Below, one piece after another: positions 2,780 to 26,860 of a DNA stretch of 27,464 nt. A model generated the notes under the pieces. It did no database searches, was not told where the DNA came from, and saw nothing but the letters and a program-made list of their open reading frames with translations. The translations under genes were made by a program, and so were the position numbers. Positions within the stretch are counted from its first letter, which is position 1. Each line of letters begins with the position of its first letter. This DNA comes from Candidatus Aerophobetes bacterium Ae_b3b (lineage in GTDB: Bacteria > Aerophobota > Aerophobia > Aerophobales > AE-B3A), in contig NJBP01000027.1 of the NCBI GenBank assembly GCA_005223085.1, positions 1-27,464 on the forward strand, in the 5' to 3' direction.

Positions 2780-2876
2780 ATACAAAAGCGAAATATTTTG
2801 CTAAAATGCCTCCTGAGATCCTGAAAAATAGATACCCCAAAAAGCTGAAATTATGGCAAAAATACAAAAGCGAAAT
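2780..2876 (+). repeat. 15-bp direct repeat, one copy inside the start of the second recombinase gene
   Basis: ATACAAAAGCGAAAT occurs at 2780-2794 and again at 2862-2876, where it encodes residues 4-8 of the recombinase. The copies are 82 bp apart. This could be a recombination core site duplicated by an excision event, a binding site for the recombinase, or chance. Confidence 0.5.
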
Positions 2877-3401
2877 TTTAAGGACAGCATCAAGTACCTC
2901 AAAAAAGATGAGTGGGATAAACTAAGAGGCAGCGTTGATAACTATCGGGATAAGCTGATAATTACCTTGCTTTGCGCTACTGGTATGAGAGTCGGGGAGT
3001 TTACCAAGCTCAGGGTGGAGGACATAGACTTCGAGGAGCGGTTCATCAGAATTCCTCCAGAGAATAGCAAGACTGGAGAAGGAAGGACCATCTTCGTGCC
3101 CAGGGAAGTGCTGAGTGATATAACAGCTTATTTGAAGCTAGAGAAGAAGAAAAATGGCAGGCTATTTGACCTGACCACCAGAAGGGTGCAGCAGCTTCTT
3201 AAAAAATACTCTTCCCGGGCAGGAGTGGAGGCCACGCCACATACTCTGAGACACACTCATGTAGTACATAGGCTCTTGGATAAAGTACCAATAACCGCTG
3301 TTCAGAAACAGGTCGGACATAAAAGACTGACTACCACCCAGATCTATAGCGACTTGGCCCCTGAGCAGGTGAGGGCGGCCTATGAGGAGACAACAAGGTG
3401 A
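2853..3401 (+). CDS. Short tyrosine recombinase (XerA/XerD-like), catalytic residues intact
   Basis: The 182-residue protein is again a lone catalytic domain with a short N-terminal extension. All expected residues are present: Arg46 in Thr-Gly-Met-Arg-Val-Gly-Glu, Lys73 in the beta-hairpin Asn-Ser-Lys-Thr-Gly, His130 and Arg133 in His-Thr-Leu-Arg-His, His156 in Val-Gly-His-Lys, and Tyr165 in Thr-Thr-Gln-Ile-Tyr. It is therefore more likely active than the recombinase at 1202. Proteins of this size without a core-binding domain occur in integron-like or archaeal-type Xer groups and in decayed integrases; which applies here is unclear. Its stop overlaps the start of a lipoprotein fragment. Only a weak ribosome-binding site (AAAAGCTGA) lies before the ATG. 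Its codon choice and composition look richer in GC than the TIR-like gene just upstream. Confidence 0.85.
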   Translation: MAKIQKRNFKDSIKYLKKDEWDKLRGSVDNYRDKLIITLLCATGMRVGEFTKLRVEDIDFEERFIRIPPENSKTGEGRTIFVPREVLSDITAYLKLEKKKNGRLFDLTTRRVQQLLKKYSSRAGVEATPHTLRHTHVVHRLLDKVPITAVQKQVGHKRLTTTQIYSDLAPEQVRAAYEETTR

Positions 3402-4481: not shown

Positions 4482-5190
4482 ATGGGAGTATACAAAAAGG
4501 GCATAAACTGGTATATAGACTACTACCTTTAACACGGGAATGAGAAAAAGCGAGATCTTGCATCTCAAGCGGAGCGATATTGACTTCAGGAACAAAATCA
4601 TATACCTCGTACAAACCAAGAACAGGGAAGTAAGGGAAATTCCTATGACCGATTTAGTTTTCAAAACTCTTCTTAAGGTTAGGAAGAATCCTAACAGTCC
4701 TTATGTTTTCTGTAAAAAGGATGGAAGTCCCTATAGAGACATAAGAGGTGGATTTACTAATGCTTTAAAAAGAGCGGGAATAAGAGATTTCCGATTTCAC
4801 GATTTAAGACACACTTTTGCTTCCCATCTGGTGATGGCAGGGGTTGATTTAAAGACAATACAGGAGCTTCTAGGACACAAGACTTTTGAGATGACTTTAA
4901 GATATTCTCATCTTTCTCCGGATCACAAACGCCGTGCTATAGAGATTCTAGGACGACGGATGGACACTATATGGACACCAAAGGTGAAAGCCAAAGAAAA
5001 AACAAGATTTGCAAACTTGCCAGAGTTTAGGTATAATGAGGATTGGGAAGGATATGCCGGAGTGGCGGAATCGGTAGACGCGCTGGACTCAAAATCCAGT
5101 GGGGTTTATCCCCCGTGTGGGTTCGACTCCCACCTCCGGCACCTTAGCGCGGGAGATTTGTCTCTTTTAGGAAAGCTCTTCTTCCCTTGA
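4482..5190 (+). pseudogene. Tyrosine integrase with internal deletion and frameshift, reading into tRNA-Leu
   Basis: An ATG at 4482 with AAAAGGGTGATTA upstream starts the usual integrase N-terminus (Met-Gly-Val-Tyr-Lys-Lys-Gly-x-Asn-Trp-Tyr-Ile-Asp-Tyr-Tyr). After only 16 codons it hits TAA at 4530-4532. From 4531 another frame carries the catalytic domain, starting abruptly at Asn-Thr-Gly-Met-Arg-Lys-Ser-Glu and continuing with His-Asp-Leu-Arg-His-Thr-Phe, Leu-Leu-Gly-His-Lys and Arg-Tyr-Ser-His. The arm-binding and core-binding domains, normally well over 100 residues, are missing: a deletion fused the two ends out of frame. A shortened catalytic protein of 216 residues could still start at ATG 4540. 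The frame runs through the whole tRNA-Leu gene to TGA 5188-5190, so its last 45 or so residues are translated tRNA sequence. This places the integrase at its own attachment site. Confidence 0.8.
5056..5141 (+). tRNA. tRNA-Leu (anticodon CAA)
   Basis: The acceptor stem GCCGGAG (5056-5062) pairs with CTCCGGC (5134-5140), and the discriminator is A5141. The anticodon stem CTGGA/TCCAG encloses the loop CTCAAAA, giving anticodon CAA. The long variable arm GGGG-TTTA-TCCCC marks it as class II, and the T arm is GTGGG-TTCGACT-CCCAC. CCA is not fully encoded (ACCT follows). It is the integration target implied by the integrase pointing into it. No second copy of its 3' end was seen elsewhere in the window, so the other island boundary lies outside it or is lost. 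Confidence 0.95.
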
Positions 5191-24888: not shown

Positions 24889-24916
24889 TTGACAAACTTT
24901 TAGACGAGAGTAAAAT
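24889..24916 (+). promoter_or_regulatory. Promoter of the riboswitch-pilB transcript
   Basis: TTGACA (24889-24894), 16 bp, TAAAAT (24911-24916). Transcription would start near 24923, about 30 nt before the aptamer. Confidence 0.75.
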
Positions 24917-24953
24917 AAGGGTGTAGATTTTCAAAACGGGGTAAACATAAAGA

Positions 24954-25041
24954 GGATAACCGAAAAGGGTAAACCATTTGAAAGAATGGGGCGCAAAACT
25001 GCAGACCTTTGAAAGAGGCAGCTGGGTCGCCGAAGTTATCC
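24954..25041 (+). ncRNA. Cyclic di-GMP-I (GEMM-I) riboswitch aptamer
   Basis: P1 is GGATAAC (24954-24960) pairing with GTTATCC (25035-25041). Inside are the conserved GGGTAAACC, the P2 stem CCATT-TGAAAG-AATGG (24974-24989) with its GAAA tetraloop, the GCGCAAA linker, a second arm from ACTGCAGACC to GGCAGC, and the conserved GGGTCGCCGA. These match the GEMM-I consensus in order and spacing. It lies in the 5' leader of pilB, before an intrinsic terminator, so c-di-GMP should control read-through into the pilus genes. Confidence 0.92.
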
Positions 25042-25057
25042 AAAAAGATCACCAGAC

Positions 25058-25088
25058 CCATTCTTTCGTTTGGAAGAATGGTTTTTTT
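25058..25088 (+). terminator. Riboswitch-controlled intrinsic terminator
   Basis: CCATTCTTTC (25058-25067), a GTTT loop, GGAAGAATGG (25072-25081) and seven T (25082-25088). The 5' arm with one extra C (25057-25067) is perfectly complementary over 11 bases to 24980-24990, the loop and 3' strand of P2 in the aptamer. This allows an antiterminator when the aptamer is unfolded. Confidence 0.88.
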
Positions 25089-25138
25089 ATTGATGTCTGA
25101 TTACCTCCCAGCAAAATTAACTTCTAGAGGTTAGGATA

Positions 25139-26860
25139 ATGGCAAAGATTAGTAGACTCAGTCTTACCGATGTCTTACTTAAAGAAGGATTCATCACCGA
25201 GGAAGATTTAAAGAAAGCTGAGCAGCATCAACGGGATAATGGGGGACTTCTCTCCTACGTCTTAGTCAAGCTAGGGTTGGTCACGGAGGAGCAGATTGTA
25301 GTAGGCCTTGCCGAACAGTTAGGAATCCCCCATATGAAGCTTACCCACTATAAATTGGATCCCGAGGTGGTGGAACTCCTTCCTGAGAGAATAATTAGAA
25401 AAGATAAAGTGATTCCCCTCTCTCAATCCGGAAATACGCTCACTGTGGCCACCGCTGATCCTCTCAATGTTTTAATGATTGACGATTTAAAAGCCCTAAC
25501 CGGCTGCAACATTCAGACTATTGTGGCTACCCCTTCCGAGATTGAACAAGTCGTGGGGGACTATTATTCTACCAGAGCCACTATGAACCTGGACAAATTG
25601 ATTGCACAATCTGAAAAAGAGACAGACACAGCAGTAGAGGTAGTTACAGACGAGCAATCGGTGGATCTGGACCAATTAATGAGAGAAGCGGAAGAGGCTC
25701 CCATTATCAGAATAGCCAATTTGATTCTCTCTCGAGCTATAAGGGAAAGAGCCAGTGATATTCACCTCGAGCCTCTGGAGAAGAAGGTAGCGATCAGGTA
25801 TCGGATCGATGGCACTCTTTATCCCATTATAACCCTTCCCAAGAGGGTACAGGATGCGGTGGTCTCCCGAATAAAAATACTATCTGAGATGGATATCGCC
25901 GAACACCGTCTCCCCCAAGATGGAAGATTCAGGGTAAGAGCACATAACCGAGATGTAGACTTTCGGGTCTCTACTATTCCCACCCGGTTTGGAGAGAAGG
26001 TGGTGCTGCGTCTTCTTGATAAAGCGCAACTTACGGGTCTGACCATTGATAAGCTGGGATTGGAACAAAACGTTCTGGAAAAATATCAAAAGGCCATCAA
26101 GCAACCATATGGAATGATTGTTCTTACTGGTCCTACCAGCTGTGGAAAATCCACTTCTCTCTACGCTGCTATTAGAGCCATTAACAGCCCTGACAAAAAT
26201 ATTCTTACCATTGAGGACCCAGTAGAGTACGAAGCTGAGGGAATTAATCAGGTTCAGATCTATGAAAAAATTGGATTGACATTCGCCCAAGCTCTGAGGT
26301 CTTTTCTCCGTCAGGACCCGGACATCATAATGCTGGGAGAAATGAGAGATCTGGAGACAGCCGATATTGGAATCAAAGCCGCTTTAACCGGACACCTCCT
26401 TTTCACCACTCTTCATACCAACGATGCTGCCGGAGCGATAGTCAGATTAGTCAATATGGGAGTGGAGCCTTTTCTTATTTCCGGTGCTCTCACCTTTGTA
26501 GGAGCACAAAGACTCATGCGAAAAGTATGCAAAAATTGTGCCCACTCTTATCACCCTTCAAAAAGACTTCTCCAACAGTTAGAGATAGAAGATCAAGTAG
26601 ATAATAATCTTGTGCTTTACCAAGCAAAAGGGTGCCGTATCTGCAACAATACCGGATATAGAGGAAGAATGGCCGTAATGGAGGCTTTAGAAATTGATGA
26701 TGATATCAAGGAGTTGATCCTCAGGAAAGTCCCGGAGCTTGAAATTAAAAAAACTGCTATTTCCCATGGAATGATTCCTTTAAGGAAAAATGCTGGGACT
26801 AAGGTAATTAGAGGAGATACGACCCCGGAGGAATTAGCCCGGGTAGCCGGAACCACGTAA
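25139..26860 (+). CDS. pilB: Type IV pilus assembly ATPase PilB (GspE family)
   Basis: The 573-residue hexameric ATPase powers pilus extension. An MshEN-type N-terminal domain (residues 8-65) is followed by the GspE-type second N-terminal region. The ATPase core has Walker A Gly-Pro-Thr-Ser-Cys-Gly-Lys-Ser-Thr (331-339; the commoner form has Gly-Ser where Ser-Cys stands), the Asp box near Ile-Glu-Asp-Pro-Val-Glu (358-363), Walker B Ile-Ile-Met-Leu-Gly-Glu (396-401), and the His box Gly-His-Leu-Leu-Phe-Thr-Thr-Leu-His-Thr (418-427). The zinc site is Cys464, Cys467, Cys499 and Cys502. Both MshEN repeats lack the Arg-Leu-Gly signature (Ser-Leu-Thr at 8-10, Leu-Leu-Ser at 37-39), so direct c-di-GMP binding is doubtful. 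The gene is preceded by a c-di-GMP riboswitch and AGAGGTTAGGATA. pilC follows 48 bp later. Confidence 0.95.
   Translation: MAKISRLSLTDVLLKEGFITEEDLKKAEQHQRDNGGLLSYVLVKLGLVTEEQIVVGLAEQLGIPHMKLTHYKLDPEVVELLPERIIRKDKVIPLSQSGNTLTVATADPLNVLMIDDLKALTGCNIQTIVATPSEIEQVVGDYYSTRATMNLDKLIAQSEKETDTAVEVVTDEQSVDLDQLMREAEEAPIIRIANLILSRAIRERASDIHLEPLEKKVAIRYRIDGTLYPIITLPKRVQDAVVSRIKILSEMDIAEHRLPQDGRFRVRAHNRDVDFRVSTIPTRFGEKVVLRLLDKAQLTGLTIDKLGLEQNVLEKYQKAIKQPYGMIVLTGPTSCGKSTSLYAAIRAINSPDKNILTIEDPVEYEAEGINQVQIYEKIGLTFAQALRSFLRQDPDIIMLGEMRDLETADIGIKAALTGHLLFTTLHTNDAAGAIVRLVNMGVEPFLISGALTFVGAQRLMRKVCKNCAHSYHPSKRLLQQLEIEDQVDNNLVLYQAKGCRICNNTGYRGRMAVMEALEIDDDIKELILRKVPELEIKKTAISHGMIPLRKNAGTKVIRGDTTPEELARVAGTT

Follow-up and report, generated by a model that had tools for sequence, protein, structure and literature searches.

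In riboswitches, the switching strand most commonly lies in the first helix, and the link between aptamer and expression platform is poorly understood (PMC10907184). Within the c-di-GMP-I (GEMM-I) class, the Cd1 riboswitch of Clostridioides difficile is a transcriptional OFF switch in which the terminator coexists with the aptamer, while the antiterminator, described with the aptamer-stabilizing 3' strand (strand A), excludes it (PMC9262584). The pilM riboswitch of Geobacter metallireducens, also a GEMM-I element, controls type IV pilus genes through transcription termination, but is a cGAMP-sensing ON switch whose terminator and aptamer are mutually exclusive (PMC9262584). In the ZTP/ZMP riboswitch, strand exchange by the platform is directed at P3, an internal helix of the aptamer, instead of P1, and this invasion builds a terminator, resulting in an ON switch (PMC10907184). 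In the yxjA purine riboswitch, an intermediate central helix is in competition with aptamer and terminator alike, the ligand blocks invasion at P1, and the outcome is OFF (PMC9756952).

The leader described here lies upstream of pilB, a gene for a pilus motor, in a Candidatus Aerophobetes genome. Like Cd1, it is a GEMM-I element whose terminator can form beside the aptamer, and an OFF response is predicted for it; its antiterminator, however, would use the P2 tetraloop and P2 3' strand in place of strand A. As in ZTP/ZMP, strand exchange would take place at an internal helix, although in a different aptamer and with an antiterminator as the product, and it would occur at P2 rather than at P1 as in yxjA. 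The riboswitch is a member of RF01051 by score, and its P2-based platform is a variant for which no description was found in the open-licence literature, an absence that is weak given this limited scope. Comparative sequence and folding energies make it probable that this c-di-GMP-I leader acts as an OFF switch at the level of transcription, with strand exchange taking place at its internal helix P2, a reading in which ligand, direction and kinetics are predictions.

Architecture of the pilB leader

The window, that is, the whole analysed stretch of 27,464 nucleotides, carries a promoter, a GEMM-I aptamer, an intrinsic terminator and pilB in that order (Table 1). The promoter sequence is also kept in a pilB leader of the same genus (L042).

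Table 1. Features of the pilB leader and its surroundings, in window coordinates
Feature	Position	Strand	Basis
Sigma-70-type promoter, TTGACA-16-TAAAAT	24889..24916	+	Consensus scan, 11/12
Riboswitch-terminator cassette, approximate extent, absent in G003	24929..25116	+	Alignment of two pilB leaders; ends +/- few bases
P1 5' strand, GGATAAC, partner 25035-25041	24954..24960	+	Sequence and folding
c-di-GMP-I (GEMM-I) aptamer	24958..25034	+	RF01051, 56.8 bits, full length 1-87
P2 5' strand, CCATTT	24974..24979	+	Rfam alignment
Putative antiterminator 5' strand: P2 GAAA tetraloop, P2 3' strand and first junction base	24980..24990	+	Exact complement of 25057-25067
TGGGTC, second pairing element of the original prediction, with 25055-25060	25023..25028	+	Exact complement
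P1 3' strand, GTTATCC, left unused by the terminator arm	25035..25041	+	Sequence and folding
Putative antiterminator 3' strand, the terminator 5' arm, CCCATTCTTTC	25057..25067	+	Sequence, relatives
Intrinsic terminator hairpin, 10 bp, 4-nt loop, -12.5 kcal/mol	25058..25081	+	Stem 25058-25067/25072-25081
T7 tract of terminator	25082..25088	+	Sequence
Ribosome-binding region, AGAGGTTAGGA, identical in the riboswitch-free leader	25126..25136	+	Leader alignment
pilB, putative regulated gene (MshEN and T2SSE ATPase domains)	25139..26860	+	Pfam PF05157, PF00437
Start of PilC-like ORF, truncated where the contig stops	26909..27464	+	Translation; family name by eye

Aptamer identity and ligand

The assignment of the element to GEMM-I, made originally from the sequence, holds: the RF01051 match is full length, and its score lies well above the gathering score of 35. 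In the Rfam alignment, the P2 loop is of the GNRA type (GAAA, 24980-24983), and the equivalents of G20 and C92 (Vc2 numbering) are kept within AGGG and GCCGAA. The usual C22 is replaced by U, which forms a G-U pair.

One GGDEF protein is encoded in the genome, whose assembly is 88.6% complete, and it carries Asp in the motif GHNQGD. Asp is the canonical residue at this position, where cGAMP synthases have Ser. The neighbouring gene encodes an HD-domain protein of HD-GYP appearance (HHESYDGRGYP). Because the G20 and C92 equivalents are kept, and the genome combines a GGDEF protein bearing the canonical Asp with an HD-GYP-like neighbour, c-di-GMP is the likely ligand.

Pairing between P2 and the terminator arm

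The segment GAAAGAATGGG (24980-24990) and the terminator 5' arm (25057-25067) are perfectly complementary over 11 bp, as originally proposed. When contiguous helices are scored against dinucleotide-shuffled arms, a match of this kind has a chance probability of 0.006; when gappy duplex energies are compared with base shuffles, the value is only 0.05. The gappy energies were dropped as a measure, since long internal loops made them uninformative, and contiguous-helix scoring was used. A single 11-mer taken alone is suggestive; the pairing is established because it recurs in relatives.

The terminator is compatible with the aptamer, while the antiterminator is compatible with neither, given the shared strands 24984-24990 and 25058-25067. 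The mutual exclusion that had been predicted is thus borne out, and corresponds to the logic of Cd1. The terminator 5' arm does not, however, have the aptamer 3' end as its best partner, as a platform of the Cd1 type would; the best partner is the P2 tetraloop with the P2 3' strand. A second pairing had been proposed between TGGGTC and GACCCA (25055-25060), which overlaps the 11-mer match at 25057-25060. These two short 6-mers are indeed exact reverse complements, but the pairing gains no support as a conserved element, P2 being the better and recurrent partner: in comparable leaders a match of this type is never the best, with L028 as a possible exception.

Recurrence of the P2 pairing across the phylum

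The relatives of the window's PilB come from Candidatus Aerophobetes metagenome-assembled genomes. The original prediction held that homologous pilB leaders should keep the pairing. Those homologues lack the riboswitch altogether, and the paralogous GEMM-I leaders of the phylum consequently served as the test set; 16 leaders besides that of the window show the P2/terminator pairing. Of 17 Aerophobetes genomes, 15 carry GEMM-I elements, and the window's genome has six. Aptamers were segmented from Rfam matches, each was assigned the closest strong terminator up to 100 nt away, and the best aptamer partner of its 5' arm was sought. In nearly all segmented aptamers, P2 has six base pairs and is capped by a GNRA loop.

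Of the 26 Aerophobetes leaders with a terminator, 17 have the P2 tetraloop and 3' strand as the arm's best contiguous partner; the clostridial control set gives 5 of 76 (Fisher p = 5e-9). Most of the Aerophobetes pairings are in register with the first base of the loop. When only strong pairings are counted, P2 is the partner in 15/15 Aerophobetes and 2/19 clostridial leaders. Strong partners in Clostridia mostly lie at the aptamer 3' end (conserved 3' core, P1 3' strand, P3 3' strand), so that the expectation that GEMM-I usually switches elsewhere than P2 holds in these 76 leaders. The comparison rests on two phyla with usable numbers, as Cloacimonadota, with one GEMM-I element in 124 genomes, offered too few for a second outgroup.

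Switching through TGGGTC and GACCCA, with the P2 match being secondary, would follow this commoner GEMM-I style, and it could draw on the exactness of the 6-bp match and on a 7-bp version seen by eye in L028. It is nevertheless highly unlikely for the window, where the P2 helix is far stronger (the AT2 fold reaches -26.2 kcal/mol against -28.1 for the aptamer before the arm is complete), and where the relatives favour P2 in the proportion given above. What recurs across Aerophobetes looks like one GEMM-I design, a clade-specific expression platform that has been selected rather than produced by chance, as judged from this recurrence, from conservation of the arm above that of its flanks, and from the preference of arms for their own partners over swapped ones.

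Conservation and covariation

Among 14 non-redundant P2-type leaders, identity is 0.88 for the P2 loop and 3' strand and 0.89 for the terminator arm, a value somewhat inflated by the anchoring of arms through a short motif list. The spacer between aptamer and terminator has an identity of 0.39 (shuffled 0.40), and the flanks stand at 0.52 upstream (shuffled 0.49) and 0.50 downstream (shuffled 0.48). Cognate arm/P2 pairs match better than permuted pairs (p = 0.0026 for all leaders, 0.006 for the P2 type and 0.002 for the non-redundant set), with p-values that are optimistic given the shared ancestry of the leaders.

Tetraloop base 4, P2 3' bases a-d and f, and junction base J1 are paired in 17/17 leaders. 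At junction position J2, both G-C and A-U pairs are seen, with changes on both sides. At P2 3' base e (position 5), the pair is G-C in six leaders and A-U in one, while ten of the 17 have a bulged or mismatched A. In the A-U variant, L013, the terminator is fully re-matched as TTCTATTC. Conservation of the pairing is strong and covariation modest, since most pairs never vary.

The near invariance of the arm and P2 sequences, together with a cassette that has clearly been copied between leaders, could also mean that the pairing was inherited with a recently spread cassette and has no function, termination being controlled otherwise or constitutive; in one version of this reading, the terminator might have derived from a copy of P2. 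This explanation is unlikely. A terminator needs only self-complementarity and its sequence would be free to drift, yet the arm holds its 89% identity while spacer, flanks and downstream sequence are at the shuffled level. Moreover, the match extends to the complement of the tetraloop, which descent from P2 alone leaves unexplained, and L013 has been re-matched.

The loop sequence divides the leaders further: the arm occurs in 17/19 with xAAA or GGAA loops and in 0/7 with GCAA, GTAA, GTGA or GAGA loops, although the latter also form related subfamilies. A second GEMM-I subfamily of the phylum (L002, L003, L017, L022, L029 and L031) has GCAA, GTGA or GTAA P2 loops and a different terminator, approximately AAGCCCGTTCT...AGAAGGGGCTT; a switching strand was looked for in these six leaders and not found.

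Folding energies and predicted switching

Folding was followed through ensemble energies of constrained folds, which leave out tertiary contacts, Mg and RNA polymerase. In the window leader, P2 and the aptamer prevail as long as the arm is incomplete; once the transcript reaches 25068, the antiterminator is ahead of P2 by about 3-4 (3.7) kcal/mol, and this lead is lost once the terminator 3' arm is completed at about 25081. Across the 17 leaders, the terminator 3' arm is complete 16-22 nt after the 5' arm (about 17 nt in the window). When the arm has just emerged, the antiterminator is favoured in 12/17 leaders; in 5/17 it gains no computed advantage over P2 even when its chances are best. The full-length transcripts of all 17 favour the terminator fold. 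Such a profile is the signature expected of an OFF switch that would be decided kinetically, and the P2-based antiterminator originally proposed gains support from folding as well as from comparison.

Without ligand, the nascent terminator 5' arm would invade P2 and pair with its tetraloop and 3' strand. The terminator would be deprived of its 5' arm, and RNA polymerase would read through into pilB-pilC. With c-di-GMP bound, P2 would be held by a closed junction core and by docking of the GAAA loop in P3, the arm would stay free, and the terminator could form within about 17 nt and stop transcription. The ligand would need to hold P2 only during the short interval before the terminator's 3' arm exists.

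The opposite direction, in which c-di-GMP raises read-through, would accord with pilM (PMC9262584) and with the usual promotion of pili by c-di-GMP or cGAMP. For this leader an ON switch is barely plausible, as its aptamer and terminator can coexist and the antiterminator alone excludes the aptamer, which is the OFF logic of Cd1 and not the arrangement of pilM (PMC9262584).

How ligand binding would protect P2 is a separate matter within the predicted OFF switch. Docking of the GEMM-I tetraloop is well established, and from this and the in-register loop complement in the arm we infer that the docked tetraloop is the site blocked against invasion. Blockage at the J2/3 junction is an equally good reading, because in several relatives (L001, L020 and L038) the pairing extends into the ligand-binding junction, to its conserved J2/3 bases. 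In a more far-reaching proposal, tentative and rather doubtful, the ligand gates invasion at the docked GNRA tetraloop itself: docking of P2 into P3, driven by c-di-GMP, would conceal the loop that the platform has to read, so that docking and not P1 stability would signal to the polymerase in a phylum-specific platform. A GEMM-I platform that reads P2 would allow a direct test of whether tertiary docking gates strand exchange, in a well-studied aptamer with about 17 natural variants, and would be a case of a single aptamer class whose switching site has evolved differently from phylum to phylum.

Origin of the cassette and associated genes

In a genome of the same genus (G003, PilB 85% identical), the leader of pilB shares its promoter and ribosome-binding site with that of the window, and approximately 188 bp (24929-25116) containing aptamer and terminator are missing; the empty site corresponds to L042 (1420-1512). 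Eight further Aerophobetes genomes, each with 1 kb or more of sequence before pilB, have no GEMM-I core there. Because G003 and these eight leaders lack GEMM-I, the parsimonious reading is that the window's lineage probably acquired the riboswitch cassette in one piece; its loss in G003 is a conceivable alternative. Judged by these leaders, the cassette is probably not ancestral to pilB. The leader would show that an aptamer-plus-terminator cassette can slot into an existing promoter-RBS leader.

The closest relatives of the cassette (L016, L020, L028 and L001) precede genes other than pilB. As identified by eye, P2-type leaders are followed by genes for secreted repeat proteins, for response regulators and for HD-GYP-like proteins, among others. 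The HD-GYP-like proteins lie downstream of the terminator in L028 and L032, where positive feedback would arise if c-di-GMP shuts off its own phosphodiesterase.

Tandem GEMM-I aptamers are kept between genera, as L004/L005 (contig C9 of the window's genome) and L033/L019 (contig C67 of G002). In both pairs, the first aptamer has a P2-type terminator and the second has none, with the P1 3' strand of the second (AGACC) directly 5' of the start codon (AGACCAATG). This arrangement suggests transcriptional and then translational control in series.

The MshEN domain of PilB spans residues 61-147 (25319-25579 in the window) and belongs to a family known to bind c-di-GMP. Thus, pilB may be under c-di-GMP control at both the RNA and the protein level. 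In the first 5.2 kb of the window, there are three recombinase-like ORFs with integrase motifs recognised by eye (1202-1729, 2853-3401 and 4540-5190), the last of which overlaps a tRNA gene (5056-5141). These ORFs are possibly the remains of an integrated element.
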